Positions 1-20,592 of a stretch of DNA of 64,000 bases are shown here, piece after piece. Position numbers and translations under genes: made by a program. The DNA lies in NCBI GenBank assembly GCA_025558075.1, contig JAHLKF010000006.1:682001-746000 (forward strand). The letters run 5' to 3'. Numbering within the stretch: the stretch's first letter is position 1; each line of letters opens with the position of its first letter. This DNA comes from Gaertneriomyces semiglobifer. Taxonomy: Eukaryota; Chytridiomycota; Chytridiomycetes; Spizellomycetales; Spizellomycetaceae. Below the pieces are notes generated by a model, which did no database searches, had not been told where the DNA came from, and was given only the letters and a program-made list of their open reading frames with translations.

Positions 1-879
1 AATGGTGTATACATCATTTCCGAAATATCCGCGTTTTGCTCGACGTCGTATGTCGGTGTTCTCTTGTATAAGCAGCCGCACTTGATCTCCGACTTTAAAC
101 CTTGGTAAAAGTTTCACCCCTCGACCTTTCCTTCGCTGTGCTACTTGAGCAGCGTATGCCTCTTCAGTATTTGCCTCCATCTGATCTGGTGTGAGAAGTT
201 TGCGTCCCACTCCAAAAGAAACTGTTCCGTTAATGTTTTTCACAATTTGCGGTAACGCAGCAACCCAATTTCTATCGAGCCGCATCGCTGCATGCAACAT
301 TACACGTACACTCTGATTCATTCTCTCTACAATGCCGTTTGTTTGTGGAGAGCCAGGTTTGGAGAAGCGCCATTGCACTCCATAAGTCCGAGCCCATTGT
401 TGTACAATTCCTTGGAACTCTTGGCCGTTATCGCTTATGGCGTGCTTGATTTCAACACCATCATCCACAAGGTCTTGTAAAAAGTCTTTGACATTGGCCT
501 GTGTGTTTGCCCTAAGCGCTTTGGAATACAACCGCTTCGTTAAGATGTCGACGGCGTTGACGATATACGAGAACCCGTTGTAACTTGAGGCTGACAAGTT
601 CACAGTGTCGATTTGAAGACTTCCAGGAGTTTTCGAAAGAATGGGACGGATAGAGCCCTTTGACACCATAGGTCTCGTGATCTTTTGGTGCAATTCTTGC
701 TTTTTAAGCCAGTCCATTATAGCGCGTTGACTTATTGGTGAGTCCGGGTACTTGGACTTAAACAAAAAGTACAACCTATCCCTTCCCATTATTGCCTTGT
801 CTCGATAATATAATTCTTTTAGTCGTTCAGCATCTTCTGGAGACACTTCTCGAAAATAGTTCTTTGGTGGTTCATCCAT
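1..879 (-). CDS. rve-family (retroviral-type) integrase, C-terminus cut by window edge
   Basis: Integrase that would insert the viral element into host DNA. The minus-strand frame is open from ATG at 879 to base 1 (293 residues visible) and continues off the window. The DDE triad reads D91 (LQIDTV), D150 (AISDNGQEF) and E185 (QTNGIVERMN); the last two are 35 residues apart, as expected for rve integrases. An N-terminal helical segment of about 85 residues precedes the core. After the core, a stretch with KVGDQVRLL looks like the start of a C-terminal SH3/chromo-type DNA-binding region. rve integrases are hallmarks of polintons, many virophages and some polinton-like viruses. It could instead belong to a retrotransposon, but no protease, RT or RNase H lies next to it and capsid genes do. 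The left end of the element is outside the window. Confidence 0.93.
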   Translation of the reverse strand, partial: MDEPPKNYFREVSPEDAERLKELYYRDKAIMGRDRLYFLFKSKYPDSPISQRAIMDWLKKQELHQKITRPMVSKGSIRPILSKTPGSLQIDTVNLSASSYNGFSYIVNAVDILTKRLYSKALRANTQANVKDFLQDLVDDGVEIKHAISDNGQEFQGIVQQWARTYGVQWRFSKPGSPQTNGIVERMNQSVRVMLHAAMRLDRNWVAALPQIVKNINGTVSFGVGRKLLTPDQMEANTEEAYAAQVAQRRKGRGVKLLPRFKVGDQVRLLIQENTDIRRRAKRGYFGNDVYTI

Positions 880-910
880 TTTGTTAAGAAACACCCAATA
901 TAAAACGATA

Positions 911-993
911 GCACTCCTGGAGCATCTTCCCTGCTCATACTCCTGGTACTCCTGGAGCATCTTCCTTGCTCATACTCCTGGAGCAAGTTATCT
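911..993. repeat. CTCCAGGAG repeat, copy 1 (two partial units)
   Basis: Two tandem units of a motif built on the 9-base near-palindrome CTCCAGGAG lie between the integrase start and the end of the next minus-strand gene. Bases 948-993, read on the minus strand, match 7852-7897 over 46 bases with one mismatch. Related copies lie at 7852, 13676 and 20259. All are intergenic, which suggests an element-specific regulatory, termination or resolution site; the function is inferred. Confidence 0.8.
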
Positions 994-994
994 C

Positions 995-2512
995 TTAGAT
1001 AATTCTCTGTTTCTTTCGAGCAGGTTCTGTAGAGGAAGGCCCTGCCTTTCTGCGTCGAAGTTCTACAGTCGGGATGGAAACATTTGAAATCAGAGGATCG
1101 GAACGTTCCATAGCGTAATCGATATCCTTCTTACCTCTTAACGCCGCAATAGGCCGCAGATTCCTTGCCGCGCCTGCTGTTCTTTCCCATGGATTTTCGT
1201 CGAACGGATGTGGCGCACCAGGAGGAGGTGTATAATTTACATTGCGTGTTGGTTTCCTTTGTCTTTGTTTTTCCACTTTTTCAATTGGTTCGAGTTTCAC
1301 GATATCTTCGTCTGCATCATTCAATCGAGTACGCTTTTTAATCTGTCGCTCCTCCGGTTGTCTCATCGCTGGTCGCTTAACACCAGATTTCAACGACTCG
1401 GGTATAATCTTCAAAGATTCTTGTTGGCCCTTTGAAACACGTGTTGCTGTCCCACCAGGAACGGTAATATTGGTAACTACAGCAATTTCGTCCAGTGGCT
1501 GCATTTCATCTAGTTCTTCTTCACGCCTTTGTCTCTTCTTGTCCAGGCGTGGTAACGGGGTTCCTTTTCGCTTTTGACCTGCTAGGGCTTCACTTGGACG
1601 ACCTCTAAAACGGAACGGTGTCCGGGCTGGAGTAGAGATGAAACGATTGTCGATAATGTTCGGCTCCAGAATGTCACTAACTTCTTGCGGATCTTTTCGA
1701 GTAGATGCAATCACAAGATCATCTGGATTAATAGACGGGGCTTGTTCAACTTCAGAACTTTTGTCTGAGGTATGACTTAGAGGCGAAGAAGGAGATGGGA
1801 AATTGGGAAACAGTCCGGGCATAGGAATTTCGTCAGGAGTTATGATCATAGGGTCGAGTGGAGTTGTACTTCCTGCACCGGAATTGACCAAACTTAAACC
1901 TGTAGCCGGATCTTTACGAATCTCTGTCTCTTCGGTTCGTATCACAAGACCGTTGCTTTGTCCAAGTCCCATTGGCTTCGGCACGTGCTCCTTTCCACCA
2001 GGTGGTGCCGAAAATCGGAGACCAGTCATTGCCGTCACCGAGACAGGATAATGGGCAACGACGCCATTGTCATCTGGTACTGGCAGCCCTGATGTTGAAG
2101 TATTTGTCCCAATCGAAACCTGATTTTTTGCTGGCCCTCGTGGGGAGATCCAGGAGGGCCTCCCTGGCGTGATCCTATCGAGAAATTCTTGTTTCTCTCG
2201 ATAATCTTTTTCCGCCCGAATGTAATCCAAACCGTCTTTGTACGCTTTTGTAAGGTGTTTGGCTTGAGATAACCGTAGTGTTTCTGCAGATGGAATGGGT
2301 GTGACATGTTCCGGTTCAACATAGTTCTTTTTGGTTGCGAGATCTTTTGCATGAATATTTCTATTCCAACTGAACACTACAGATGGTTTTCCAGATTCGT
2401 CCAGATGGTCGAAATCGACTGCATATCCTATTTGATGTCTTTGGATGTTCGCAACTGGTGCTTGTTGATTAACCCCAGCGAACTCGAGTACATTTGCAGT
2501 ATACGTTGCCAT
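995..2512 (-). CDS. Basic, largely disordered viral protein of unknown function
   Basis: 505 residues from ATG at 2512; I do not recognise the family. Roughly the first 140 residues look folded and contain a helical KDYREKQEF segment. The remainder is rich in P, S, T and G with several basic clusters (KKRQRR, KKRTR, RRRK), ending in a Lys/Arg-rich tail. Such clusters fit nuclear targeting or nucleic-acid binding. It lies between the integrase and the morphogenesis block on the same strand as the integrase. A virion core or DNA-binding role is possible, but nothing in the sequence proves it. The start is supported by a long upstream AT-rich spacer shared divergently with the next gene. No protease motif was found in it. 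Confidence 0.75.
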   Translation of the reverse strand: MATYTANVLEFAGVNQQAPVANIQRHQIGYAVDFDHLDESGKPSVVFSWNRNIHAKDLATKKNYVEPEHVTPIPSAETLRLSQAKHLTKAYKDGLDYIRAEKDYREKQEFLDRITPGRPSWISPRGPAKNQVSIGTNTSTSGLPVPDDNGVVAHYPVSVTAMTGLRFSAPPGGKEHVPKPMGLGQSNGLVIRTEETEIRKDPATGLSLVNSGAGSTTPLDPMIITPDEIPMPGLFPNFPSPSSPLSHTSDKSSEVEQAPSINPDDLVIASTRKDPQEVSDILEPNIIDNRFISTPARTPFRFRGRPSEALAGQKRKGTPLPRLDKKRQRREEELDEMQPLDEIAVVTNITVPGGTATRVSKGQQESLKIIPESLKSGVKRPAMRQPEERQIKKRTRLNDADEDIVKLEPIEKVEKQRQRKPTRNVNYTPPPGAPHPFDENPWERTAGAARNLRPIAALRGKKDIDYAMERSDPLISNVSIPTVELRRRKAGPSSTEPARKKQRII

Positions 2513-2574
2513 CTTTAACTTATCGAGATCAAAAAAATCTCTTTGTCTAGTAGTAAACCCACTATTGTTTGATA

Positions 2575-2886
2575 ATGCCGTTTGCTAAATTTCTGAACAA
2601 CGGAAAATCTCGCTTAAAGACATTCTGGAATAACGCTCCATCATTTCTCGCAAAAGGAAGGACCTTTGCTGGCCGGGCCGTATCTGGCTTAAACAAGGCC
2701 CAGAAGGCCATTGAAGGCGTCAATAAGGCGGTCAATGATTCACCGACCTTATTCAATGAGAAGACAAGAGGTTTTACTGCTGGGTTAGCGGAAAAGTCCG
2801 GATCCGCAGTTCGAAAACTCTCTGAACTTCAACAAGAAGGCGACAAATTTATCGATAAAGTTGAAGGCAATCTTCGCCAATCTTAG
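2575..2886 (+). CDS. Small Gly/Ala/Lys-rich viral protein, possible minor virion protein
   Basis: 103 residues starting at ATG 2575; a TTG six bases upstream is in frame but is unlikely as a eukaryotic start. The protein is basic, begins MPFAKFLNN, and has amphipathic helical stretches (RTFAGRAVSGLNKAQKAIEG) followed by a helical C-terminus. Small amphipathic basic proteins next to the ATPase and penton genes are common in adenovirus- and polinton-like viruses, where they act inside the capsid. Here that role rests on composition and position only. Its last four bases overlap the 3' end of the packaging ATPase gene on the other strand. Confidence 0.65.
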   Translation: MPFAKFLNNGKSRLKTFWNNAPSFLAKGRTFAGRAVSGLNKAQKAIEGVNKAVNDSPTLFNEKTRGFTAGLAEKSGSAVRKLSELQQEGDKFIDKVEGNLRQS

Positions 2887-3599
2887 GCGAAATACTCTTG
2901 AAATCCTACATCGTTATTCGCATATCGATAGATTTCTTTAGCACTGGACTTTGCCAGATTTATGTAGCAAAAAGCATATCGCTCCTTTGTGCATTCAACC
3001 AGATACCCATGGACTTGTTTTTCATTCGCATAGGCTGTTGACAGGACTTTGGCCAATTGTTTCATGTCCTCTGCATTGTTATTGAAAACAATCCATTCTG
3101 TCGAGCAATTCTTTTGCTTGCGACTGAGTTGCGACGTGATACTTTGACAACATACAATTATCGAAATATTAAAGTGTCGGGCCTTTGTGTATAAACGATC
3201 CAACTCTCGGCTAAGATCTTTTGACCGTGCCGAGTCTGCTGCGTCGTCTATGTAGAGGAGAACGCTTTTCTTTGATCCTGTCGCTTTCTGTTTCTCCACG
3301 ATCTCCTTGATGGAATCATTGGAAACGTCGTCCGTAAAGTAGATGTGCTTGTGCTTCGTTATTCGTGCAAGTTCTTGAATTGATTTGTCAAAGAGAACAG
3401 TATCCGACATGATGATAACCTCGTCGAACACTTTGGCATAAACATCATCTATCAACCCACACACTAGGGCACTTTTGCCACTTTTCCGCGGAGCAACCAA
3501 TGTAGTACAAAGAGGCGGACTCGCTATTTGAGTTGGTACTCGAGGATCGTCCTTTATCGCATTTTTTGGATATATCGCTTTCGGCTTAAACGTCTTCAT
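2883..3599 (-). CDS. FtsK/HerA (A32-like) genome-packaging ATPase
   Basis: 238-residue P-loop ATPase expected to pump DNA into the capsid. Walker A is APRKSGKS at residues 36-43. Walker B is SVLLYIDDA at about 112-120, with the hydrophobic strand followed by DD. A downstream IIVCCQSITSQL segment (about 150-160) matches the sensor strand of the family, where a polar residue follows the strand. Length agrees with A32-like ATPases of polinton-like viruses and virophages. Start is ATG 3599. It is divergent from the penton gene (45-bp spacer at 3600-3643), so the two may share a promoter. Together with the capsid candidates it identifies a double-jelly-roll virus. Confidence 0.93.
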   Translation of the reverse strand: MKTFKPKAIYPKNAIKDDPRVPTQIASPPLCTTLVAPRKSGKSALVCGLIDDVYAKVFDEVIIMSDTVLFDKSIQELARITKHKHIYFTDDVSNDSIKEIVEKQKATGSKKSVLLYIDDAADSARSKDLSRELDRLYTKARHFNISIIVCCQSITSQLSRKQKNCSTEWIVFNNNAEDMKQLAKVLSTAYANEKQVHGYLVECTKERYAFCYINLAKSSAKEIYRYANNDVGFQEYFA

Positions 3600-3643: not shown

Positions 3644-4369
3644 ATGCTATATGAGTATACCTACTGTAGTTTGAAATCGAGATCATTTGCCATTCCTCCC
3701 AGGAAGGTTGAATATCTTAAGATTCTGAGCGTGTCCTTTATACAGGATTATGATCTCATCAATCAAACCAATAACAAAGTTGCGTTTGTCGAGGAATCCG
3801 AATCTTCTCCAAGAATTGCCTCTTTACCTGTAGGGAACTATACGATATCAAACTTCCCAACAGCACTTCGGGATGCGTTAACTGCTGCTGGATCACAACC
3901 GTACCAGGTATCATACGACTATGTCACGAGAAGGCTGACCATATCGACAACCGGTACAAAAACATTCAAACTGCTTCATGCTGGTAGAGGTACGTCCGCT
4001 TATCGCTTAATGGGTGCATCTCGATACCAAGATTCTGGATATTATCAATCGATGACTCTGAAGAATCCCGTCGACTTGTCCGGATCCTATCCCATCCTAT
4101 TGACGAGTAATATTTTGGTTCGCGGTGTGCAGTTCCTTTCGGATTTTAACGAAGGGGAGCAGTTGGTCGTTGCTACTATGACTCCTGACAACTTTGGGGA
4201 TGTTGTTTTCTTCGATAACTCCGCAGGTCCATATCTTCCAGTGGATGATACGGTTTCAAAGGTTGAATTTCACCTTATCGACAGTATGTCCGGCAATGAG
4301 TTGTCCTTAAATAGCCCTTTAACTGTTCGGTTTGTGATTTCTGACGATATAAATGACAATTTAGGATAA
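3644..4369 (+). CDS. Penton-like minor capsid protein (predicted single jelly roll)
   Basis: 241 residues from ATG 3644. Strand-rich sequence without cysteine clusters or membrane segments. An N-terminal strand region is followed by a LPVGNYTISNFPTAL segment resembling the N-terminal part of penton/minor capsid proteins in related viruses, and the C-terminus contains KVEFHLIDSMSGNELSL, a typical penton-type strand pair. Length fits penton proteins of polinton-like viruses. It would occupy the fivefold vertices, where the tail-fibre-like protein encoded at 13.8 kb could attach. The assignment rests on size, position between ATPase and major capsid gene, and beta-rich character; a structure prediction would settle it. 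Confidence 0.8.
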   Translation: MLYEYTYCSLKSRSFAIPPRKVEYLKILSVSFIQDYDLINQTNNKVAFVEESESSPRIASLPVGNYTISNFPTALRDALTAAGSQPYQVSYDYVTRRLTISTTGTKTFKLLHAGRGTSAYRLMGASRYQDSGYYQSMTLKNPVDLSGSYPILLTSNILVRGVQFLSDFNEGEQLVVATMTPDNFGDVVFFDNSAGPYLPVDDTVSKVEFHLIDSMSGNELSLNSPLTVRFVISDDINDNLG

Positions 4370-4409: not shown

Positions 4410-4925
4410 ATGACAGAACAAGAAAACGCACACGTTTCAAGCACCGAACCCGAAATCGTACAAGTTCCCGTTATTGAACAAGAGCCTGTTCAAGAGGTTG
4501 TTCAAGCACCTGTTCAACTGGTTGCGCTACAGCCTGAACCGACACCTAAACCTAAAAAGATTCTCACCGAGAAACAGCAGAAGGCCATCTCGAGGGCGCA
4601 AAAGGCCCGGGCAGAGCAACTACGCTCCATGCAACAGAAGAGGGCTGAAGAACGTCGCATAGCAGCAGAAAAAAAACGCATAGAAGATGCCAAACGAGTT
4701 CTCCAAGAAGAACGCGATAAGAAACGTGCTCTTCGTGAAGAGAAAAAACAAGTGGCTTTGGAAAAAAAGCAGTCTGAAAAAGCACAGAATGTAAAGCCCA
4801 AACAACACAAGAAAGTGCGTCCAAATGAACCTTGTGCTAAAGCCCTAAAAAATACTATTGTGCATTTCGACACTGCACAATATCAAAACGAGTTTGTTGA
4901 TAATTATGGTGGCATTTATGGATGA
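4410..4925 (+). CDS. Basic coiled-coil viral protein
   Basis: 171 residues from ATG 4410. The first 50 residues are acidic and proline/valine/glutamine-rich with near-repeats of VQVPVIEQEPVQ type. Residues 50-140 form one long highly charged helix rich in K, R, E and A, with heptad-like spacing. The last 35 residues contain a short hydrophobic segment ending NEFVDNYGGIYG. No enzymatic motif. It sits between the penton and major capsid genes in the same orientation and is probably a virion scaffold or DNA-associated protein, by position. Low complexity makes homology unreliable; the family is not recognised. Confidence 0.7.
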   Translation: MTEQENAHVSSTEPEIVQVPVIEQEPVQEVVQAPVQLVALQPEPTPKPKKILTEKQQKAISRAQKARAEQLRSMQQKRAEERRIAAEKKRIEDAKRVLQEERDKKRALREEKKQVALEKKQSEKAQNVKPKQHKKVRPNEPCAKALKNTIVHFDTAQYQNEFVDNYGGIYG

Positions 4926-4972: not shown

Positions 4973-6208
4973 ATGAGTGAGATTCCTCGTAATTGGCTGG
5001 TGAATACTCAAACCTTCTCAAGAAGTTATCAAGATCCTCGTGGGGAAGGAATTTTTTCGTTCTCTCCAATCGGTCAAGCGGAATATACATCAAAAAATCG
5101 CAATTTGACTCCCATTCGAATTGTATGCAATGCTGATGCACAATCATTCGACTTGAAAAGGATGATTCTCTCCATGGATATTTCCGCGTATAATAATGGG
5201 ACTCTTGTAACACCTGGAGCAGGTATCAAGAACTCATATCTAGGTCTCGAGTCGATAATTCAGTCTTTGACTATTCGTGCGGCCGGAGTCGTAGTGGAGA
5301 AAATTGACAATTTTCCTGCATATCTAAATTCCGTATATAAGAACATGCCTCTCGGTCAAAAGAAACTTTTGAGACAACTGTCTGGATACGGGAACACCAA
5401 CATGTTCGAAACTCGTTCAACCGTCTCGATGAATATGCACCCCTGGGTAGGGTTCTGTCATCCTAATCAAGACCAGTATTTTCATACCTGGTCTCTAGCC
5501 AACCAGGCAATCGAGTTTTCCATTGTTCTTGCCGATCCACAAACCGTTTTCCAGAGCGGGAATGTCGACGAAATCCGTGTTTCAAATATTCGTCTTCTCA
5601 TGCCCTACGTAACTCCTCCTCCCGAAACTGTCGTCAACATAACCAGAGCAATTGCTGACGGTAAAAGCATTTACTATGACTATACTCGGACTACGCAGAC
5701 GGAAGTGGCTGCATCCGGAGGCAAAAGAAATACATTCATTTTACATATGTCGGGAGTCAGGTCGTTACAAGGATTTGATGCAACATTTCTCGACACCGCT
5801 AATACTGATTCTTCCAAAGACCCGGCTTTGAACTATTCTTCCCAGAATCTAAGGGAATGGCGTCTTATGGTTGGTTCTCTTACAATTCCACAAGGTACTA
5901 CAGGATTTACACACTCTCCAACTGATAATCAAACCTTGTTGGTTAGTCAGTTAAGCCAGAATAACTTTGACCGATTGGGAGATTTGGATATATCATTTGC
6001 TGATTATGACACGAAACAGTTCTCTTTCGGTTGGTCTTTCCAAGACAGAACCGAAGCAACAAACGCGGCATTGTCCTTTGTCGGTACAGACTCTTTGCTT
6101 CGCATTCACACGGAACACGAAACTCCGGTTCCTGTGTCCGTACGACTCTTAGTAAATTTTTCTGAAAACTGTACGCTGAGTATTGGTACCGTCGTTGCGG
6201 TTATTTAA
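4973..6208 (+). CDS. Major capsid protein candidate (double jelly roll)
   Basis: 411 residues from ATG 4973, preceded by a TATATA-rich leader (4966-4971). The sequence is beta-rich and ends in hydrophobic strands (VRLLVNF, CTLSIGTVVAVI). Features typical of polinton-like virus capsid proteins are an N-terminal strand leading into NLTPIRIVCNADAQSFD, a WSLANQAIEFSIVL strand block near residue 180, and a second half with repeated strand-loop units (about 235-411). Length is in the range of compact major capsid proteins of polinton-like viruses. It is flanked by ATPase and penton genes, the standard morphogenesis trio. Identification is by architecture and context rather than by a signature motif. 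Confidence 0.85.
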   Translation: MSEIPRNWLVNTQTFSRSYQDPRGEGIFSFSPIGQAEYTSKNRNLTPIRIVCNADAQSFDLKRMILSMDISAYNNGTLVTPGAGIKNSYLGLESIIQSLTIRAAGVVVEKIDNFPAYLNSVYKNMPLGQKKLLRQLSGYGNTNMFETRSTVSMNMHPWVGFCHPNQDQYFHTWSLANQAIEFSIVLADPQTVFQSGNVDEIRVSNIRLLMPYVTPPPETVVNITRAIADGKSIYYDYTRTTQTEVAASGGKRNTFILHMSGVRSLQGFDATFLDTANTDSSKDPALNYSSQNLREWRLMVGSLTIPQGTTGFTHSPTDNQTLLVSQLSQNNFDRLGDLDISFADYDTKQFSFGWSFQDRTEATNAALSFVGTDSLLRIHTEHETPVPVSVRLLVNFSENCTLSIGTVVAVI

Positions 6209-6445: not shown

Positions 6446-6775
6446 TTAATCGTCCGACTCCTCATCCTCCTTGTCAAATACAATGCTCGGTGGCCCGCTC
6501 GGTGTGCTCGTTTCCTTTGGTATCGGTTTCGAGGCTTTCTTCTTTGTGACTTCCCTCTTCTTTGTAGCAGGGTGCTTTTCAGATAACTCATCAAGTAAAA
6601 CGCAAGCCTTAAGTGCCTTTATGACTTCTTCTCCAAATGCTTCACTATGCTGTTCGACATCTGCGGAGAACTCTTTTCGTTTCGCTGGAGTTAACCGCAT
6701 AGCATATCGAATTACATTATCTGCAAGGTCAGATATCCCCATGTTCTGAGGACGCGAACACCATTTCGAAGCCAT
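6446..6775 (-). CDS. Small viral protein with Lys-rich then acidic tail
   Basis: 109 residues from ATG 6775, not recognised. Residues 1-65 are predicted helical (LADNVIRYAMRLTPAKRKEF and VIKALKACVLLDEL). Residues 66-90 are Lys-rich (KKREVTKKKASKP), and the end is acidic (DKEDEESDD). This mixed-charge tail would suit a protein that binds DNA or a basic partner. It is convergent with the capsid gene and divergent from the zinc-ribbon gene at 6882 across a 106-bp AT-rich spacer. Confidence 0.65.
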   Translation of the reverse strand: MASKWCSRPQNMGISDLADNVIRYAMRLTPAKRKEFSADVEQHSEAFGEEVIKALKACVLLDELSEKHPATKKREVTKKKASKPIPKETSTPSGPPSIVFDKEDEESDD

Positions 6776-7139: not shown

Positions 7140-7811
7140 CTACTCAGGTTTTTGGCAACTGGTCCTGTTATGCCCAACTTCACCGCAATTTCCACACTGC
7201 GTTGGCCTCCGTTTAGCAGGACCATCATCATTCCCAGACATGCGTTTTGCCTTTCGACGTGATGAAGATGTTGAATCCGGCAGCGATACAGGGGAAGTTG
7301 GAACTTCATGCGTGGTACCAGTAGAAGGCCCCATGCTTCTTAGTGTTTCAGGAGCAAGCGTCACTTGCAAGGACACTGGCTGGACGGATCCTGATGGTCG
7401 ACCGTCGTTCAGGCCACTGTTGCTCGGGCGCTGGTAGTCTGGGTCCAGGATCATTTTTTTGACATGGTAGATACGGTCAAGCGTCTCGCTGACAGCAGAA
7501 CCCGGCTCGACGAAGTTTTTTAAGTGTGTTTCGTACGTCTCTACGAATTCCTCGGTTTTGATGTTATCCAAATCGAAGTCTTTCCCTTTCCGCACAATCC
7601 TTCCGGTAAGCGCGGCAGCACAATTTTTAAGTTCGACGGATAACTTCTCTCGCAAATTAAGGAATTCTTTTATTTCCATGATAAGGTCATGGTCCCCGTA
7701 TGGATGCTTTCGAATACGTACATCAATGGCAGTGTCATCTTTAGTGCCTTTACCGGTCATAAGCAACACCTTTTGGCTGTTAAGGCGGACTAGGGGTGTT
7801 TTGTCTCCCAT
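7140..7811 (-). CDS. CCHC zinc-knuckle protein
   Basis: 223 residues from ATG 7811. A C-terminal CCHC knuckle reads CGNCGEVGHNRTSC (C-x2-C-x4-H-x4-C), a single-stranded nucleic-acid-binding motif of Gag-like and cellular RNA-binding proteins. It is preceded by a basic KRMSGNDDGPAKRR stretch. Residues 35-110 are predicted mostly helical. No RT or protease accompanies it, so a retroelement Gag is not supported; a viral nucleic-acid chaperone is the simplest guess. Its upstream spacer carries copy 2 of the CTCCAGGAG repeat, 41 bases before the start codon. Confidence 0.72.
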   Translation of the reverse strand: MGDKTPLVRLNSQKVLLMTGKGTKDDTAIDVRIRKHPYGDHDLIMEIKEFLNLREKLSVELKNCAAALTGRIVRKGKDFDLDNIKTEEFVETYETHLKNFVEPGSAVSETLDRIYHVKKMILDPDYQRPSNSGLNDGRPSGSVQPVSLQVTLAPETLRSMGPSTGTTHEVPTSPVSLPDSTSSSRRKAKRMSGNDDGPAKRRPTQCGNCGEVGHNRTSCQKPE

Positions 7812-7897: not shown

Positions 7898-8438
7898 GTG
7901 GTCGAAGGAAGTGTTTTTGAATTGATAACAGAGGAGGGAAGACATCGATAATACCACCCTTTTTATATTTTGGCGCATACCCTTCAGATCAACGTTTCCT
8001 TTTCAAAAAAAGAAAGAAAAGAAAGAGGCCGCCGCCCTCCGATTCCATTCACCGTCTAAAAATACTTTTTAGCACTTACTCTGACTCCGAAAGCGATGAG
8101 GAGTAACAAATTACCAGTGTAGGCCACTATCCGCACACATGCACACATGCACACATGCCTTTCTGTCCATAGAAAAGCATTTTCAGAAAAAAGTTCATTC
8201 AACCTTCTGTGAACTTTTTTTTTGGAAATCGACTTCTTTGAACCCAAAATCAAGTGTGCCAAGTGTGCCAAGTGTGCTTCTACATTAATTTTACTACATA
8301 TTTTATTATATATTACTTACTATTCTCTACAAACCCTCTACATAGCACAGATGAGAGAACATATCCAAGGTCAAGTGTGCCAAGTGTGCTTCTACATTAA
8401 TTTTACTACATTTAAAGATTACAAATAACTAGGACAAT
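7898..8438. other. Intergenic region left of the replication gene
   Basis: No convincing gene. Holds an AG-rich run near 8008-8027, the left arm of the large inverted repeat (8133-8299) and a second partial iteron copy at 8371-8411. See the separate repeat entries. Confidence 0.6.
8133..8299. repeat. Left arm of ~165-bp inverted repeat with iterons
   Basis: Imperfect inverted partner of 11345-11507. In order: three CACACATGC units (8133-8158), a shared block around AAAAGTTCATTCAACCTTCT, an A/T run, AAAATC, three AAGTGTGCC-type units (8251-8280) and CTTCTACATTAATT. Bases 8371-8411 repeat the iteron-plus-CTTCTACATTAATT part once more in direct orientation. Arms of this kind around a replication gene suggest an origin or paired promoters (inference). 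Confidence 0.85.
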
Positions 8439-11294: not shown

Positions 11295-11344
11295 TATGGA
11301 GAGGATATGTAGATAAGTCATAGTAATAGTTTATTGTTAATGAA

Positions 11345-11507: not shown

Positions 11508-11653
11508 TTGTATAATGTTGCATAAGTAATAAAGTGAATGTTACCGAAAATAGAAGCCTATTCACTGCTAACGTAACTTCGGCTGAATTACCTAGGAAAG
11601 TGTTCAAAGTGTCTTTGAACACTTCCATCCTTTTTCAACAGAGAATTAGAAGA

Positions 11654-13576
11654 ATGGAGCAACTTGCCGAGCAGGAAGCAAAAATCGATAGGTGTTTCTT
11701 AAAAGTCAATAATCCTGTAGCCCCGGATGGATTTTATCGAACCATAATCGCGATGCATCACATCATCACGAACAAGTTGTTCAAAGCGCGACATCGCAGT
11801 TTAGAAGATTATCTCGAGCGACAATGGAATGTTTCTCGAGGGATGGGTTATATCTATAGGGATGCTGGGGAAGTCACTATGGAACTGTGGTACTCTATTG
11901 ATCGTTTCGATTTGCCAACCAATATCACACTCATGATAACAATCAAAAAATTGGCCAAGAAACATGGATTATCATACACACAAGTGTGGAAGAAGGCACT
12001 TGCGCATTTTCTTCATGTAAGGAATGTGGTTGCGGTACACATGAAAGATGCGTTCATGGTGAATGGGGACCCGGATTTAAGTCGAACATCATCCACACCG
12101 GTTGACTCTGCTGTGGACACTTCCGAAGCATCATCCACACCGGTTGACTCTGCTGTGGACACTTCCGAAGCATCATCCATACCAGTTGACTCTGCTGGGG
12201 ACACTTCCGAAGCATTAGGTGTGGAGTTAGAAACTTCTGTCGCGTCGCAATCGCCTGAAGCATCAAGTGGGAATCCTGTTCAAAGAGTTTCGCAACGTCG
12301 AAAAAGATCCCAACAACAAATCGATGAGGAGGATGATCAAGAAGAGGAAGAAGGAGAAGAGGAAGAAGATACCGAAGAGGAACCTGCTTTTGACAGGTTC
12401 AAAGATGCGATATCAACATTTTCCGTACCATTCATGGAAGATGAACAAAAGGCCAAAGACTTAATTACCAAGGGCCAAGAGAAGATAGTACTTCTCTTGA
12501 CTGATGCTACGTCTAAATTATGTGAGCGAGGCCTTTGTTGTTTCTTACAAGGTAAACGTAGACGAAACAACAAGGGTCGATCTTTGGAAGCACTTGTTCT
12601 CCTTGATTCGAACGAGAATTTCTCAAGGGGAAGGGATTTCTTTCGAATCTTTCGGGAATTTGGAGTAATACCCAATGGGAGGCTGTTATCTATCCAAAGC
12701 AATGTGCAAATGCCAAGTACTCTACGCTACCTTTCACTATTTTCTGGAATTGGCGGTGCGGAATTGGCAATGTCAAAAGTGTTCCCTCATGCGATCTGCG
12801 TTGGATTTGCAGAGATCGATCCAGATGCCACCAAAATTTATCTTGAACACTTTGATACACATAAGAATTTGGGCGATGTTAAAAGCATTGCAGTTGATCA
12901 ACTTCCTGATTTTGACTTCCTAATTGGAGGATCACCTTGTCAAGGCTTTTCGAATGCAAGTTCGAATCGAAAGAATTGGGAAGATGAGCGGTCGACATGT
13001 TTCCATGATTTTGTCAGAGTTCTAAAGGCCAAAAAGCCACGATGGTTTCTGTTTGAGAACGTTGTAATGGATGAGGATGTTCAACGTTTGATTTCGAAGG
13101 AACTTGGAGTAGCACCGTTCAAACTGAACTCCAATAACTTCAGTGCTCAGAATCGAAAAAGGCTATACTGGTGCAATTGGTTTGTGCCTGTACCTAATTT
13201 GAAGCCGACACCGCTGATCGATTCGATAATTGAAGATGACGTTCCTTGCAAAGGACTTTATCGAAGGGCACTTGTTGGTTTGAATCCGAGGGAGGCCCCG
13301 TGTGCGGTAACTCAGGGCAACGGCGGACAATTGTCCTATCGAACTGATGGAAAGGCAAATACTGTTCTTTGTGCCAAAGACAACCAGAGCATTGTTGGAG
13401 TCAACGGGAAGTTTCGACAATTAATTATATCCGAGAATGAGAGGTTGCAAGGGTTTCCCAAGGATTGGACTATCGGCGTTTCAATGCCATCGAGGAGACG
13501 ATTGGTTGGAAATGCCTTTCAGGTCGATACCGTTGCTTACATTCTATCGCAGAATGAGGCGCTTTTCCAAGTCTAA
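11654..13576 (+). CDS. C5 cytosine DNA methyltransferase with N-terminal extension
   Basis: 640 residues from ATG 11654; a GTG-initiated extension to 11534 stays in frame but lacks an ATG. Methylates the 5-carbon of cytosine. Motif I FSGIGG (about residue 363), motif IV PCQGFS with catalytic Cys (about 427), motif VI ENV (about 467), motif VIII QNRKR (about 498) and motif X VGNAFQ (about 619) are all present, so it should be active. The first 130 residues are helical and include SLEDYLERQWNVSRGMGYIY, which resembles phage-type DNA-binding helices. Three 14-residue repeats, an RRKR cluster and a long acidic run (about 215-245) follow. Target could be viral or host DNA. It lies between the inverted repeat and the fibre gene, with no partner endonuclease seen. 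Confidence 0.92.
   Translation: MEQLAEQEAKIDRCFLKVNNPVAPDGFYRTIIAMHHIITNKLFKARHRSLEDYLERQWNVSRGMGYIYRDAGEVTMELWYSIDRFDLPTNITLMITIKKLAKKHGLSYTQVWKKALAHFLHVRNVVAVHMKDAFMVNGDPDLSRTSSTPVDSAVDTSEASSTPVDSAVDTSEASSIPVDSAGDTSEALGVELETSVASQSPEASSGNPVQRVSQRRKRSQQQIDEEDDQEEEEGEEEEDTEEEPAFDRFKDAISTFSVPFMEDEQKAKDLITKGQEKIVLLLTDATSKLCERGLCCFLQGKRRRNNKGRSLEALVLLDSNENFSRGRDFFRIFREFGVIPNGRLLSIQSNVQMPSTLRYLSLFSGIGGAELAMSKVFPHAICVGFAEIDPDATKIYLEHFDTHKNLGDVKSIAVDQLPDFDFLIGGSPCQGFSNASSNRKNWEDERSTCFHDFVRVLKAKKPRWFLFENVVMDEDVQRLISKELGVAPFKLNSNNFSAQNRKRLYWCNWFVPVPNLKPTPLIDSIIEDDVPCKGLYRRALVGLNPREAPCAVTQGNGGQLSYRTDGKANTVLCAKDNQSIVGVNGKFRQLIISENERLQGFPKDWTIGVSMPSRRRLVGNAFQVDTVAYILSQNEALFQV
12086..12211 (+). repeat. 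Three 42-bp tandem repeats inside the methyltransferase gene
   Basis: In-frame units at 12086-12127, 12128-12169 and 12170-12211 encode SSTPVDSAVDTSEA-type 14-mers. The first two are almost identical; the third differs by a few bases. They form a flexible spacer ahead of the acidic region and probably expanded recently. Confidence 0.9.
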
Positions 13577-13824: not shown

Positions 13825-16800
13825 ATGAGTGGGGCAGGATTAAATTCAAGAACGGCAAGCGGTCTAAGGATGCTTCAAAACACAAATTTAGTAAGTGCAC
13901 TTGTTTCAGGAGATGGCCTCTCTGCCCAAGGCGAGAATGTAAATCTTGAAGGCTTCCATACTGCCCGAGTCGTTGAACTAGAGAATAAGAATGGGCCACT
14001 CGAGGTTAACGCGATAACAAGCGAAGCACCCATTTCCACAACGCTTGAAAACGGGACCGCACACGTTTCCCTAAAGTATTCGAGTAGGGACTTTGAGATT
14101 GGTCCAGAGAATGATCTTCAATCAAAGAATCGTCCTCTGGTAGCCGAGGCACCTCTGTGGGTCGATAAACAGATGGAAGAGACTGTAGTTGGACTGCATT
14201 ACGACGCGCCGTTCTATACTTCGGAACATGGTTTGTCATTGATGACAGACGATACAACTATTACTATAGATAGCGAGGGAAAACTAAAATCTATCGATAA
14301 GAACTTCATTGCTCCACTGCAACAAACGGATACAGAAGTGCGTTTGAACATTGATACTCCATTGGTTGTAAAGGATGGCAAACTCACTGCAGACAATAAG
14401 AGTATTATGAAGGGAGCAGGTGCAATAAGAGTGTACAGTGCAATGGATGACATTCTGCCTGAGATGCCGGATTGGGTGGATATTGATCTTCCCGGCGGTC
14501 TTGAAGATTACTTAGAGAATGGAGCACTTGTAAAACTCGAGGTTACAAACGACTTTCAGCAAACAGGATCTCGCTTGGCAATCAGATCAAAGGGCTTACA
14601 TGAGATTCCCTACTATTCAGGACTTAGCGGTTTCAACAGTTCGAACCGTTTTACTTATAACGAAACATTGCAGACTCTAACGACACCGACATTCCATGCT
14701 GAAGCGGTCGACTACAATGTAACCGAGCCACGGCAATTACCAACTGCCGGCTATGTGCATCAACTTTATCAATCCCAAGCCGGTTCAGCGATAGATATCT
14801 CCGAAGTCGCGAATGGGAGGAAACTAATCAAGGTGACTCATGATACGACACTCAACATCAATGAGTCGAACCAACTCGAAGTGAATGTACCCACCATCGC
14901 GGACGGCACTTCGGTGAAGGCGGTTAATGGCAAGTTGACAGTCGATCCCTATACGGCAGGAGATGGAATATCTATTGCAAACAACGTGGTGTCATCTACA
15001 TTGACATATGGAGGCAGTCTTCGAAGAGAAGGCGACCAAGTCATTGGGAAAACGGTTATCGCGGGTTCTAGCAATGTCACTGTTGTTCAAACGAATCCTT
15101 TCAGTTATGAAGTGTCCGTGCTGAATCCTCAGAGTCAAATTGACAATCTGGATGACAAAGTGACGGATCTTAACGAAAAGACTGACCAGAACAAACTGGA
15201 AACTGATAATGAGATCAACGCTTTGAAGAATGAGGATATACGACTCGATAACAAAATTGATGCAGTGGAATCTCGAGTCCAGCAGCAAGAATTGAAGAGC
15301 GACCTTCTCTCGAACGATATCACCACAAACAGAGGGAGCATCAACAATTTGGACATTGCTAAGAACCAGATTCAAAGTGACTTGATTTCGCTCGGCGCTG
15401 AAGTAACTGGGTTAACTGGTGTTGTTGATACGGTGAATACGGTCGCCACTGGTGTGCAAGTGGCGCAGGCTTTGATGAAGGGCGATGTTACCTCGTTGCA
15501 AGGAATCGCTACATCATTGGCTGGGCAGGTCACTGGGCTCGACGCTGCGTTGACAGCCTATACGTCTCTCCCGGTTGTTCGTGGGGTCATCGGAATAGGG
15601 CTAATTGTTGGCCCACCTGATCCGATTACAGGCATAATTACAATTACCAACGGGACAGGTCCGTTAATGGCGAAAGAACCACCTCTCGGACCTACGAATA
15701 AAAATGGCGGTACAACATTCAAGGATACGTATCATGGAGATAATGAAGGAGGTGGAGGTTCAACAGGAGAAATCACTCCAGGATTGCCCGATCCGCCAGA
15801 CCCCCCCATTCAACCTCCGCCTCCCCCTCCAGTCGATCCCGTAACTTTGAAAAATACTGGCAAAATTGGAGGAGGTGGAGGATCCGGAGGGTCAGGTGGC
15901 GGTGGGGGATGTTTGAATGGAGTGCCTCCAATCTTCAAGAATCGTGATAGCCGAGGAGAGCGCACGACGTTTGTAGACAGTTGGGGGAAACGGTGGTCTG
16001 AAGAAATCCAGTCAGAATTCACCGAAGAAGGGATAGAACGATCGATTTTGGAGTACGATGACAATGGGGTTCCAATAGTAACACCAGGACACTTGGACAT
16101 TATTCTACGCCGAGATGATGATAATAATATTTCAACGGCGATCTTAACTCATGATAGGCATCTCCAGACTGGGTACATCAACCAAGGCGGGATTCTCTCT
16201 GAGCATCCATCAACTGTTCCGAACCTTGCAATGATCTATCAAGCGTACGAGTCCTACATTCTTCCATATATTGAGAGCATCAACTACGTCAATGTCGGAC
16301 AAGGACTTGTCAAAACGGGCAATACGTTGTCCTTAAATGATGATCTTACGACATTTGCGAAAACAAGTTCATTAAAGGCTCTTGCGTTCAAGGACACTCT
16401 TGCATACAATGATTTGACAGGACGCCCTACACTTGGGACATTGGCAGCAAAGAACAGCATTGCCTGGACAGAAGTGACCTCTCGACCGGCTCTTGGAACC
16501 TTATCGAGCAAGAATACAATTGATTGGACTGGAACGGATATTCTAAATAAACCGACGGATTTGACCACCAAGACTTATGTTGACAGTTTATCGTATCTCA
16601 CGGTGGGAGCAGGTTTGGTCAAAACGGGGAGCACAATATCTCTGGGATCAGATCTCGGCGCTTTTGAAGTCAAAACCAATCTCAAGGCTCTTGCTTACAA
16701 GGACTCTTTGAGTTGGACTGAGATTACTTCGAAACCAACACTGGGAACACTTGCTTCAAAATCGAGCGTGTCTTGGACAACTGAAGTGGCAAATAAGCCA

Positions 16801-19800
16801 ACGCTTGGAACCTTATCGACAAAGAACAACATTGATTACAACTCGACAGATATAATCAACAAACCGGACTTGTCAATCTATGAAACTAAAACATCGCTTA
16901 AAGGATTAGCGTACAAGGACAAGGTTGATTATGTCGCTGACCTACTGAATGCTCCAGCGTCTGTAACTTATGGAAGTGGTCTGTTGTTTAGTAATAACAC
17001 GGTGTCGTTGAATCCTGCCGTCAGTGTTGATACTTTAACAACTACATCAGGCATTTCTGTTGGAGCCAACGTATACGCAACAGGTAACGTTGATATAGGA
17101 GGCGCCTTTTATGCCAACAGAAGCATCAATGGTGCTTTCAACCATATATTGAATAACCAGTCCAGTGCTTCAACGTCATGTACTTCTCTTCATCTTAAAG
17201 CAGGTTCTCTTCAAGGTTTGTACCTTCATATAAACAGCGCTGCCCGAGGGTCATATGGAGGCGTGAATACTGCAACCATTCAAAACTATGCTGGTGCACT
17301 AAGATTGCTAACCAAGACCGAGACTGGCGGGATCATAGTTGACACTTCAGGGTCTGTGACTATTCCGACAACCCTATCTGTAGGCGCATTGAATCTTGGC
17401 ACACTAACCGCCAGCGGCAGTATCTCTGTTGGAGGATCGATAAACGTCTCAGGTGGCAGTGGAACTGTTACAGATATTGTATCGTTCCCACCGGCGAATA
17501 TGACTGCAGAGACAACTCTTATTACCGGACAAACTTATGGCAATGGAACATATGTTGCTACTGCAAGTTCTATATATAATAACTCGACGTATTATACTCC
17601 ATGGCGAGCGTTTGAAACAGGTCCTTGGTACCCATTGGTTAACTCATATAGTGCGACCGCTCCGTATAGTTATGTAAGAGGAATAACGACACTTGTCGAC
17701 TCTGTATCTGTCGCTGGAGAATGGATACAACTTCAAATGCCGGTTTCTATCATATTATCGTCGTTCGACATTACAAGTTCTACAACTTCCAGATTCATAA
17801 AAGATTTCGATCTCGTTGGATCAGACGACAATGGTGCTACATTTACGAATATCTTGTCATCAACAATGAATTGGGGGACTGGATCGGCACAAACGCTCAA
17901 TATCCCAGTTCCAAAGTCCGCCAAAGCATTCAACACATATCGGCTGATTGTAAAGTCTATGGCAGGGAGTTCTACGTTCTGCTCTGTGAATAAATTAGTC
18001 TTCAATGGTTTGCCTGCGTTGGACATCAAGGGGACTATTTCTACAAATCGCATTATCACCAAGGATTTCGTATGCGAAGGCGATGTGCAGATGAATGGTA
18101 TGACTCTTCAAGAAGAAATTGTTTCAACCATGACTTTCCCTGAGATTCCGATGACAGCGGCAACTACAGGACAATACACTGCTACTTCATCAAGTGTTTA
18201 CAGCGCATCATGGACACCGTGGAAAATTTACAATCCGTATGATTCTAGTAATAACAATACATGGTTTGCTGCTGATAACACATATTCAACGACGACACCG
18301 TTCTCGTATATTGGGAGTGTTTCCACTGTTGTGGATGGGCAGACCGTCATGGGCGAGTGGATCCAATTGGAAATGCAAACTGCAATTGCTTTAACTTCCT
18401 TTTACATTGCTGGACCTACTTCAGCAAGCAGTCAGTACTTTGATATTAAGGATTTCATGATCGCAGCCAGTAACAATAATTCAACTTGGAAACAAGTGGT
18501 CCAAGGGACACTTGATTGGAGCAGTGCTATGACCAATGGTTCATTACGTGAGTTGAATGTCGTGATAACTACTAATCCCCCTGTCTACAAATCATACAGG
18601 TTAATTGCAAAATCCATTATAGGTGGATCGAATGCAAAGTATGCTCAGATTTATTCCCTGAAATACTCAGGCGGACCATTGAAGAAGGTTTTGAATGTTG
18701 AAAACCTGAAAGTTAACAAAATCTTTGGTGATCTTTCAATCGACAATGATGTCTCATTCAAAAATGATATTGTCGACCCTATTAGATATCCTCAGATACC
18801 GTTGACCGGTTCAACTACTGCAGGTTATATTGCGAATGCAAGTAGTTACTTGAATGGAACGTCGGCAGGCTGGAAGGCTTTCACTAATTCCTTGGAGATT
18901 AATGACTCTTATTGGTCTGCATCAACATATTCCGGTGGAGAACAGAACATGTATCAAGGTACAGTTATTACTGTTGTAGATGGTTCCAATATCAAAGGCG
19001 AATGGGTTGAACTTGAAATGCCCGAAGCAATCGCTATCAATGCATTTTCATTTGCCGCCAGAACACCTGAAATGCCAATGTTTCCTAAGAATTACACCAT
19101 ATGTGGATCGGATGATCACAGCACTTGGACAGAGATCTCCTCTGGAACAATGACATATACAATCTATCAGAACTCAACTTCAGTAGATCGGTATGTGCCC
19201 ATCAAGAACTACACTACGAAGAAATTCAAAGTATTTAGATTCATTGTCCGTAACCTTATTTCTTCAACATATGCCCATATTGGTAAACTGACATTCTATG
19301 GATCCAATACCACACGTAAAATCATAGATGCTCCATCTGCAAAAATTAACAATATGGCTTTGACCGCTCCAGCATATGGAATGTTCCAATTGCATTCGAG
19401 TCAAGCGTTTTCTGTAAACGGCACAGCGTATCAGTTAATAACTAAATGGACACCTTCTTTTGGTATGGAAAGCGATACAATTACTTGTTCAACAAATTCG
19501 CAAGATATTGTCATCAAGTTACCGGGAATATACAAGGTTGAATTTGATCTAGATTGTCATCAATCGGGTTCCGGGTCTGTCAATAGTTATTTTGGTTTTA
19601 TGGTCCCTGGTAGCACCGTGTATTACGAAGATGGTTATCATGTAAGAAAACACAGTATGGTTGCCGGTCAAAAAGTAACAGGTTCATCTATATGTCGTGT
19701 GGTAGAAGCAGATACCAAGATGATTCTTCGCTTTATATCCGCAAGTTCATCGGGCGGGATTACTGGCTCTCAAGCATCTCGGTTGATCATATATCGTATT

Positions 19801-19815
19801 GCGCCATTGGCCTAA
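13825..19815 (+). CDS. Giant tail-fibre-like attachment protein
   Basis: 1,996 residues from ATG 13825, without a frameshift. Likely projects from the capsid to bind the host. Order: a beta-rich, phage-tail-fibre-like N-terminus; a coiled coil (about 435-520); a proline run then a glycine run forming a hinge (about 650-700); repeats with LGTLASKN/LGTLSSKN and NKPT words (about 845-1035), typical of phage tail fibres; three modules of about 180 residues (about 1215-1395, 1432-1615, 1648-1828), each with GEWIQLQMP-like and GSDDNGATF-like motifs, resembling discoidin/F5-8C galactose-binding folds; and a C-terminal domain (about 1855-1996) with the look of a trimeric C1q/TNF-like head. Domain names are inferences from motif patterns. 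It may also be glycosylated or bind chitin or glucan. Confidence 0.85.
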   Translation: MSGAGLNSRTASGLRMLQNTNLVSALVSGDGLSAQGENVNLEGFHTARVVELENKNGPLEVNAITSEAPISTTLENGTAHVSLKYSSRDFEIGPENDLQSKNRPLVAEAPLWVDKQMEETVVGLHYDAPFYTSEHGLSLMTDDTTITIDSEGKLKSIDKNFIAPLQQTDTEVRLNIDTPLVVKDGKLTADNKSIMKGAGAIRVYSAMDDILPEMPDWVDIDLPGGLEDYLENGALVKLEVTNDFQQTGSRLAIRSKGLHEIPYYSGLSGFNSSNRFTYNETLQTLTTPTFHAEAVDYNVTEPRQLPTAGYVHQLYQSQAGSAIDISEVANGRKLIKVTHDTTLNINESNQLEVNVPTIADGTSVKAVNGKLTVDPYTAGDGISIANNVVSSTLTYGGSLRREGDQVIGKTVIAGSSNVTVVQTNPFSYEVSVLNPQSQIDNLDDKVTDLNEKTDQNKLETDNEINALKNEDIRLDNKIDAVESRVQQQELKSDLLSNDITTNRGSINNLDIAKNQIQSDLISLGAEVTGLTGVVDTVNTVATGVQVAQALMKGDVTSLQGIATSLAGQVTGLDAALTAYTSLPVVRGVIGIGLIVGPPDPITGIITITNGTGPLMAKEPPLGPTNKNGGTTFKDTYHGDNEGGGGSTGEITPGLPDPPDPPIQPPPPPPVDPVTLKNTGKIGGGGGSGGSGGGGGCLNGVPPIFKNRDSRGERTTFVDSWGKRWSEEIQSEFTEEGIERSILEYDDNGVPIVTPGHLDIILRRDDDNNISTAILTHDRHLQTGYINQGGILSEHPSTVPNLAMIYQAYESYILPYIESINYVNVGQGLVKTGNTLSLNDDLTTFAKTSSLKALAFKDTLAYNDLTGRPTLGTLAAKNSIAWTEVTSRPALGTLSSKNTIDWTGTDILNKPTDLTTKTYVDSLSYLTVGAGLVKTGSTISLGSDLGAFEVKTNLKALAYKDSLSWTEITSKPTLGTLASKSSVSWTTEVANKPTLGTLSTKNNIDYNSTDIINKPDLSIYETKTSLKGLAYKDKVDYVADLLNAPASVTYGSGLLFSNNTVSLNPAVSVDTLTTTSGISVGANVYATGNVDIGGAFYANRSINGAFNHILNNQSSASTSCTSLHLKAGSLQGLYLHINSAARGSYGGVNTATIQNYAGALRLLTKTETGGIIVDTSGSVTIPTTLSVGALNLGTLTASGSISVGGSINVSGGSGTVTDIVSFPPANMTAETTLITGQTYGNGTYVATASSIYNNSTYYTPWRAFETGPWYPLVNSYSATAPYSYVRGITTLVDSVSVAGEWIQLQMPVSIILSSFDITSSTTSRFIKDFDLVGSDDNGATFTNILSSTMNWGTGSAQTLNIPVPKSAKAFNTYRLIVKSMAGSSTFCSVNKLVFNGLPALDIKGTISTNRIITKDFVCEGDVQMNGMTLQEEIVSTMTFPEIPMTAATTGQYTATSSSVYSASWTPWKIYNPYDSSNNNTWFAADNTYSTTTPFSYIGSVSTVVDGQTVMGEWIQLEMQTAIALTSFYIAGPTSASSQYFDIKDFMIAASNNNSTWKQVVQGTLDWSSAMTNGSLRELNVVITTNPPVYKSYRLIAKSIIGGSNAKYAQIYSLKYSGGPLKKVLNVENLKVNKIFGDLSIDNDVSFKNDIVDPIRYPQIPLTGSTTAGYIANASSYLNGTSAGWKAFTNSLEINDSYWSASTYSGGEQNMYQGTVITVVDGSNIKGEWVELEMPEAIAINAFSFAARTPEMPMFPKNYTICGSDDHSTWTEISSGTMTYTIYQNSTSVDRYVPIKNYTTKKFKVFRFIVRNLISSTYAHIGKLTFYGSNTTRKIIDAPSAKINNMALTAPAYGMFQLHSSQAFSVNGTAYQLITKWTPSFGMESDTITCSTNSQDIVIKLPGIYKVEFDLDCHQSGSGSVNSYFGFMVPGSTVYYEDGYHVRKHSMVAGQKVTGSSICRVVEADTKMILRFISASSSGGITGSQASRLIIYRIAPLA

Positions 19816-20382
19816 GCCAGCAGCGCGATTGAGAATTGTCAGTAGGCATTTCAATTTTTGTATTGTAGCCTTGTGTAGCCCAGTGTAGCCATTGGGTGGC
19901 TACACTCGATACATGTAGAGAAGGAAGGAACATTTGAATAAGGATAAGAAGAGAAAAACACGAAGAGAAGAAGTGTAGCCGTTGTAGCCCTATATTTCAG
20001 AGTATTTTATATATTTGTTTTAAAATTTGAATTTTGAAAATCATTTTTGAAAATTGAAATTGGAAGAGAAGGAAAAGACGTGCTACAATGGCTACAAGGC
20101 TACAAGTATAGATATATACGACGGGCCAGTTGAAATAGATGGATAAACGCGCGCGTTTGGTCGATAAGGTGAATGTGTTGAATACGCGGCAAGCATAGGG
20201 AATTATCGATAATGAAAAGGTATATATAAGGAGATGGGGTACGCGGTTGGGGTGCGTTGCTCCAGGAGCATGAGCAGGGAAGACGCTCCAGGAGTGCGAC
20301 AAGTGTCAAAGACTTCACAGCGGCGCACTCGATAAATTATGGAGCGAAGTGGAGTCAATACGAAAGCGGCGCTCGGTAAACT
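19816..20382. repeat. Non-coding right flank of the element with tgtagcc iterons
   Basis: No gene. TGTAGCC occurs three times at about 19864-19890 and twice at 19975-19989; its complement GGCTACA occurs three times at about 20082-20103. An AT-rich core (about 20000-20070) lies between the opposed sets. A single CTCCAGGAG repeat unit (copy 4) is at 20259-20295, and a TATATATAAG box at 20221-20230. The arrangement mirrors the iterons around the replication gene. Confidence 0.75.
20259..20295. repeat. CTCCAGGAG repeat, copy 4
   Basis: 37 bases matching the core of 7861-7897 with two or three substitutions and in the same orientation. It is the last recognisable piece shared with the interior of the viral element, so the element extends at least to here. 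Confidence 0.85.
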
Positions 20383-20592
20383 ATGGTAAGGGCCGTTGTG
20401 GCGGTTATCAGTAACGGCCGCTACACAGGGGCCGTTATCAATACCGGCCGCTACACTGAGACGGTGAGCGAAAACGGCCGCTACGACCCGTTATCGGTAA
20501 CGGCCGCTATACAGGGACCGTTACCGATAACGGGCATTGTCACAGTGCAGGGAGATACTTGTCAAGTATCTCCCTGCACTGTGACAACGGGG
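20383..20592. repeat. Palindrome cluster, candidate right end of the viral element
   Basis: Four CGGCCGCTA boxes at about 30-bp spacing (20415-20510). Perfect 17-bp inverted arms at 20487-20503 and 20518-20534 share the CCCGTTATCGGTAACGG word. A 51-bp palindrome has 25-bp perfect arms (20537-20561 and 20563-20587) around a single T. Stacked dyads at the edge of a mobile element fit terminal hairpins, head-to-head inverted repeats or a nested miniature transposon. The left counterpart lies outside the window and cannot be compared. Confidence 0.7.

Follow-up and report, generated by a model that had tools for sequence, protein, structure and literature searches.

The linear genomes of poxviruses and parvoviruses end in hairpins, terminal palindromes that occur in two complementary states; these viruses have no rve integrase, and their replication genes are unrelated to those considered here. 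Polinton-like viruses, in the available excerpts of two papers, carry capsid, penton and ATPase genes, long terminal inverted repeats and an rve integrase or a tyrosine recombinase; their replication modules, in which SF3 helicase, TVpol or primase parts occur, are exchangeable (PMC4642659, PMC12220804). EMALEs, the Mavirus-like endogenous virophages, are described in the excerpt available as having an rve integrase, terminal inverted repeats and mostly 3–5 bp target duplications, with a tyrosine recombinase in addition in the mid-GC types (PMC8547959). Here we report an integrated polinton-like virus with palindromic ends in a 64,000-nucleotide stretch of DNA (the window; contig JAHLKF010000006.1, positions 682,001–746,000), whose host is very probably the flagellated fungus Gaertneriomyces semiglobifer. 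The window element is like polinton-like viruses in all the features listed. Its family is like the EMALEs in the traits named above but differs in having a central CG at its target sites, whereas the authors, in the excerpt available, saw no sequence-specific integration (PMC8547959). EsV-1-type phaeovirus proviruses are similar as integrated eukaryotic DNA viruses with recombinases and a palindromic linearisation site, but they are giant viruses, their palindrome is internal, and the excerpt at hand ascribes their excision to a tyrosine recombinase (PMC13236599). The ends of poxviruses and parvoviruses resemble those of the window family in their palindromes and two complementary states, and the missing integrase sets them apart.

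The element spans 24,250 bp (G000:C6:678337-702586) and occupies bases 1–20586 of the window. The first-pass annotation, made from the letters of the window, had placed its right end at 20592, which we correct by six bases, and had advised reading beyond base 1 for the left end. A search of the genome with the right end located an inverted copy at C6:678334-678533; the leftmost 3,664 bp lie outside the window, and base 1 is interior to the element. The terminal inverted repeats of 776 and 764 bp are 97.9% identical, and these long repeats (0.77 kb) and the total length, within the 14–40 kb range, are as expected of a polinton-like virus of the Preplasmiviricota. So are the penton gene, called by the names of its relatives, and the A32/FtsK-type packaging ATPase beside the capsid gene, and the presence of an rve integrase; a tyrosine recombinase is recognised by motif only. 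Two features of Maverick/Polinton elements proper are missing. No protein-primed family-B polymerase is found in the element, as had been noticed for the window, and the 14 DNA_pol_B_2 places all lie elsewhere in the genome; and in place of a 6-bp target duplication we found one of 5 bp in three relatives and five solo palindromes, and none at the window copy. The initial proposal that a fungus of the chytrid type harbours an integrated virus of the polinton-like kind is upheld. As the same gene set recurs at many loci of the genome, its occurrence is far beyond chance. The GC content is approximately 0.40–0.47 within the element and 0.46–0.53 past 22 kb, and those frames that were tested in the host DNA on the right encode cellular proteins (ESF1, a protein kinase, a class II tRNA synthetase and an aspartyl protease). 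The element's frames in the window are open and intronless, as first described; scans of the window for Rfam families and tRNAs gave no matches.

Both ends of the window element consist of a perfect palindrome of 24+1+24 nucleotides, the form expected of a hairpin telomere, with a folding energy of −28.7 kcal/mol in comparison with −6.0 for shuffled sequences. Throughout the family the element-end palindromes are perfect or near-perfect, 49–66 nt long, and have in common the outer motif TGTCACAGT[G/C]C; they start with TGTCACAG and end with CTGTGACA. Using the loose pattern TGTCACAGN{20,50}CTGTGACA, we found 44 places in the genome and one for the reversed control. One of the 44 (C2:1056221), not palindromic inside, was set aside as a chance match, and the flanks were read at the other 43. 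By eye, 32 of these were classed as element ends, having known element sequence, or a start in common with such an end, on one side, and the remaining 11 as solo-like, without recognised element sequence beside them. The first eight outer bases are fixed by the search; on the left side, each of the 43 places continues with T, then G or C, then C. Complementarity holds for 504 of 508 inner pairs at the 32 element ends, although several of these ends derive from a single insertion by copying. The inner arms of eight classes (seven element-end and one solo) are 25% identical, the level of random sequences, and the inner pairs hold in 122 of 122 cases over one representative per class, chosen as intact. 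What is conserved in the arms is the symmetry and not the sequence. In both odd-length classes the unpaired centre, read inwards, is always T or A: class a, to which the window element belongs, has four T and two A, and class c has two A and four T. The occurrence of both states is what flipping hairpins would give. The loose pattern has at least 125 matches in IMG/VR, with a median inner pairing of 30% and a best of 75% among the matches listed, inner pairs being counted there from base 9 and in the genome from base 12; the strict pattern has none. A second, imperfect palindrome lies just inside the terminal one, and the element end could fold as two hairpins.

At 31 of the 32 element ends a CG overlaps the central base of the adjoining 5-mer, compared with a background of 12.1% in the host part of the window, and 16 of 17 strand-collapsed 5-mers have it (P = 3e-14); the sole exception reads ACAAA where a sister flank reads ACGAA. 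Exact 5-bp target duplications flank three of the six elements with both ends known (CCGTG and AACGG on C21, CTCGT on C38) and 5 of the 11 solo-like palindromes in host DNA (chance approximately 4e-13). A solo palindrome on C33 interrupts a frame that, from its motif in the empty site, we take to encode a C2H2 zinc finger. A recent burst of class-b elements was considered and rejected: seven of their ends (C2, C19, C30, C34, C39, C47 and C59) have one flank in common, alike over the 60–70 bases read except for one base in C39, and the elements were therefore copied together with their surroundings. Family-B polymerase (pPolB) genes lie about 7 kb beyond the class-b ends (G000:C19:360299, C47:30827, C39:68829, C34:134660, C2:1351172, C30:150049 and C59:23094), and these elements seem to be nested in a pPolB-bearing repeat and copied along with it.

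The window copy itself is not a clean insertion, a possibility that we rejected on its chimeric flanks. On the left is a retrotransposon-like repeat, whose other copy continues without the element, and on the right a different, high-copy host repeat; with flanks from two targets and no 5-bp duplication, the copy must have been rearranged. The first description of the provirus as apparently intact thus holds for the frames in the window and fails for the copy as a whole. An assembly join between viral and host DNA at about 20.6 kb, named at the outset as grounds for dismissing the provirus, is not borne out: six ends, belonging to four class-a elements that include the window's, have this palindrome and break off at an identical base, which supports a natural right junction. 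The right flank contains a fragment of a hAT transposase (20635–21213, Dimer_Tnp_hAT 3e-25), and 49 bases of 20583–20641 are repeated at 22282–22330.

With a probability of roughly 0.6, we consider the element to be an endogenous polinton-like virus of the MELD lineage whose hairpin-forming palindromic ends serve both the integrase and end replication, solo palindromes arising by recombination. The TG...CA edges would be joined to CpG targets by the rve integrase, perhaps guided by its chromodomain. In the free genome, prior to integration, the palindromes would fold as hairpins and so solve the end replication of a linear genome without a protein-primed polymerase; it is the lack of that polymerase in the element that points to hairpin ends. 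Copying of one arm from the other would keep the palindromes perfect. The two palindromes are direct repeats as well, and recombination between them would remove the element and leave a solo palindrome. A candidate enzyme for palindrome recombination or hairpin-end resolution is the tyrosine-recombinase-like protein. In two classes its genes (L009:7203-8849 and L043:4214-5266) adjoin the terminal repeat, at a distance of about 0.9 kb from the palindrome; the 548-residue type-1 protein and its 25% relative have in common the positions R..K..LR..H..Y, presumably the residues of a tyrosine recombinase. We hold more tentatively, at somewhat below even odds, that hairpin telomeres double as rve integrase ends, so that one palindrome would serve replication, CpG-targeted insertion and later excision and leave solos behind, the arms being free to change because hairpin copying keeps them matched.

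Several observations weigh against the hairpin reading. The hairpin form is deduced from integrated sequence, and the centre-base flip concerns one position and few events. The 11 solo-like palindromes pair less well (107 of 152 inner pairs) and six of them have no exact duplication, one of the six having four of five bases; the window copy has only ACGG common to both sides. Two of the five solo duplications (CTGGG and GTGGG) have TG in place of the central CG; together with ACAAA, these look like decayed methylated CpG. In the elements on C35 (L165/L166) and C31 (L168/L169), one flank is an inverted copy of the other, without differences over 70 bases on C35 and with a few in 70 on C31, an arrangement that simple insertion does not produce. 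The tyrosine recombinase is found only in some element classes, and has no significant match in Pfam, PHROGs, NCBIfam or PDB.

Some of the same observations would fit a palindrome that is a recombination site and not a telomere, its arms bound by the tyrosine recombinase, which would excise a circle and leave a solo palindrome. The recombinase-like genes stand beside the terminal repeat in two classes, the type-1 protein and its relative have the positions presumed to be those of a tyrosine recombinase, solo palindromes with 5-bp duplications occur, and classes a and c, which have different recombinases, also have different arms. We nevertheless regard this main rival as unlikely, because the 5-bp duplications and TG...CA edges seen at the insertions are characteristic of an rve integrase, and because the genome has 27 integrase places in comparison with 9 and 4 for the two recombinase types. 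Such an enzyme requires no perfect symmetry across 49–66 nt, and class b has the palindrome and, in the genome search, neither recombinase type (some 8.5 kb of it not read base by base). A telomere resolvase that cuts the palindrome and reseals it to closed hairpins, as in phage N15, would likewise account for perfect palindromes next to a recombinase-like candidate, and has a precedent in Ectocarpus phaeovirus proviruses, for which the available excerpt describes a telomere resolvase and a telRL-like palindrome (PMC13236599). At the level of sequence, the recombinase gave no match to TelN, TelK or ResT. Against this account, the recombinase has no sequence match to solved proteins, and each integrated end holds a whole palindrome where resolution would leave half, so that a nick-and-fill step would be needed; we find this account improbable.

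Less credible still is a palindrome that is an integrase-binding end only, as in many transposons, with symmetry that has no role in replication: the outer bases common to all places read are what it predicts, but integrase binding alone leaves unexplained why the inner arms are kept in symmetry and nothing else. We give hardly any weight to an assembly artefact or a decayed relic. The chimeric flanks of the window copy and the stops in some sister genes point that way, but base-exact ends at dozens of places, several palindrome sequences, the target duplications and the constraint on the ATPase described below all speak against it.

The relatives of the element are already in the databases. 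There are NCBI taxonomy entries for Powellomyces chytrid fungus MELD virus 1-6 (2707315-2707320; Third Party Annotation (TPA) records), and related sequences occur in Spizellomyces, Powellomyces, Phlyctochytrium, Geranomyces and Gaertneriomyces, which leaves unsupported the expectation that double-jelly-roll viruses of chytrid-like fungi are little described and that this could be a new lineage. Chytrid or chytrid MELD virus names are attached to 17 of the 20 relatives of the capsid protein and to 7 of the 12 of the penton protein; for MELD virus 5 the hexon and penton identities are given in Table 1, the MELD viruses being known here by protein names and taxa. The Powellomyces hosts belong, we presume, to the same order as the host here. 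The early calls of a penton-like and a major-capsid-like protein agree with the names of these relatives and with the Pfam family Capsid_N, matched by 10 of 21 capsid-family members (best E 7.5e-4). The window's own member is not among the ten, and neither its capsid nor its penton protein has a Pfam match of its own; a PDB profile search with the capsid family gave no match. IMG/VR contained no relatives of the capsid or replication protein and one ATPase of 27% identity. Of five papers on such viruses, four (PMC10120064, PMC12220804, PMC8547959 and PMC4642659) do not use the word hairpin, and the fifth, PMC11071308, has it only where it cites the title of a work on a Neurospora plasmid; words beginning with palindrom-, looked for in PMC12220804, PMC8547959 and PMC4642659, are absent from these three. 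Among the papers listed for hairpin, palindrome and polinton terms (20 of 120, and 4 of 4) there was no description of such ends, and among the few listed for polinton-type viruses with chytrid or fungal terms there were no chytrid proviruses, both at the level of titles and abstract openings; no listing joined Gaertneriomyces with endogenous viral elements. The kind of virus and its chytrid lineage are thus already known to databases, and what is new is the palindromic ends.

Matches to the genes of the window copy were counted in the genome. The ATPase has 31 (five at 93–100% identity, one at 78%, seven at 57–59% and 18 at 24–32%) and the capsid 41, some in pieces. Three sister copies, on C45, C21 and C24, have the capsid genes and ends in common with the window element; the recombinase is truncated on C45 and contains a TGA on C24. 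The window's replication protein and methyltransferase have no match in these copies. C21 has in their place an intact frame for a Prim-Pol with a D5-type helicase and a response-regulator protein, and the same helicase gene is split in two frames on C45 and C24. The response-regulator receiver protein (L017:861-1631, Pfam 3e-22) occupies the position of the window's methyltransferase. Both in the window element and in these sister copies, inverted repeats border the replication module; those on C45 are related to the inner terminal repeat. Between C6 and C21 the synonymous divergence reaches 2.6 (saturated) for the penton and is 0.013 for the recombinase, values so unlike that parts must have been exchanged between copies.

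The ratios of nonsynonymous to synonymous rates (dN/dS) are low for the structural and packaging genes: 0.02–0.09 for the ATPase of C6 or C45 against other copies (0.04–0.09 against C6), approximately 0.03 for the penton against C6 (saturated dS), 0.13–0.23 for both genes between closer copies, where the ATPase has 0.13–0.19, and 0.14 for the capsid between C6 and C45. These values show the ATPase and capsid-type genes to be under selection for protein function. No such signal is seen for the recombinase (0.69 between C6 and C21, with very few changes) or for the gene of the 505-residue protein (up to 0.76; the C21 and C24 pieces as cut include a stop). A second class of elements, at L041 (G000:C19:371001-381000) and with matches on C30, C34, C35, C39, C47, C59 and C2, has two different capsid genes (65–69% and approximately 27% like the window's) flanking one ATPase; the first of the two has one TAG on C19, C30, C34, C39 and C47. 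Large helicase-like frames were seen by eye in other elements of the family (L011:4174-6432 and L043:992-4105) and may possibly represent a further type of replication module, the L011 pieces matching only ResIII (0.027).

The features of the window element are given in Table 1. The 3.7 kb to the left of the window hold the rest of the integrase, a 147-residue protein and the 548-residue protein. Against solved proteins in PDB, the integrase matched 17 sequences, retroviral integrases (best 6e-7); a chromodomain-like C-terminal stretch was seen by eye in sister-copy frames of the window family, and the class c integrase has a C-terminal chromodomain (Pfam 3.9e-13). The helicase part of the replication protein matches the solved "Primase" chain 6k9e (2.2e-12), and its N-terminal part is, from its motifs, putatively TVpol-like. 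Clusters of the motif CTCCNGGAG lie near gene starts and in the terminal repeat (914–983, 7862–7896, 13688–13732 and 20260–20294) and also in the closest sister copies, and one motif is found in the adjoining retrotransposon-like repeat.

Table 1. Features of the element in window coordinates, with the evidence for each.
Feature	Position	Strand	Evidence
rve integrase of the retroviral DDE type, first 320 aa, frame continuing beyond base 1	1..960	-	Pfam rve 1.6e-12; matched place C6:681833-682864
CTCCNGGAG motif cluster at integrase start	912..994		10 motifs in bases 1-20592, 0 in other 43.4 kb
Conserved 505-aa protein without known domain	995..2512	-	69-98% in sister copies C45, C21, C24, C20
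Small conserved 105-aa protein	2569..2886	+	94-98% in sister copies
A32-type packaging ATPase	2883..3599	-	Pox_A32 4.1e-8
Penton protein	3644..4369	+	56% identity, TPA penton of Powellomyces chytrid fungus MELD virus 5
Charged 171-aa protein, penton-capsid interval	4410..4925	+	Syntenic in sister copies, 56-90%
Putative major capsid protein, double-jelly-roll type by family	4973..6208	+	60%, TPA hexon of Powellomyces chytrid fungus MELD virus 5
Conserved 109-aa protein	6446..6775	-	95-96% in sister copies
223-aa protein, zinc-knuckle-like motif at C-terminus	7140..7811	-	Weak matches, best E 0.065; 41-47% in sister copies
Inverted repeat framing replication gene, left arm	8133..8353		80% complementary to 11286-11504
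Replication protein, SF3/D5-type helicase and N-terminal part	8439..10865	-	DUF5906 6.8e-19; aligned with four relatives
Inverted repeat framing replication gene, right arm	11286..11504		Complementarity to 8133-8353
C5 cytosine DNA methyltransferase, long N-terminal extension	11534..13576	+	PF00145 1.7e-40; dcm 3.6e-43
Fibre-like 1996-aa protein, F5/8 type C repeats	13825..19815	+	PF00754 1.8e-16, 3 stretches
Right terminal inverted repeat	19823..20586		97.9% over 776 bp; left one L009:6337-7112, C6:678337-679112
Subterminal second palindrome, imperfect	20487..20534		Just inside terminal one
Terminal perfect palindrome 24+1+24, element end	20538..20586		Outer edge 5'-TG...CA-3'

How the ends are copied in linear polinton-like genomes without a protein-primed polymerase is, to our knowledge, unsettled. 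A palindromic end that keeps its symmetry as its arms change is a concrete and testable answer to this question. With the exact ends, the CpG rule and the signature TGTCACAGTSC...GSACTGTGACA, a simple search can also locate insertions and solo scars, a suitable pattern being TGTCACAGTSCN{16,46}GSACTGTGACA, and viral load, age and excision could in this way be counted in chytrid genomes.

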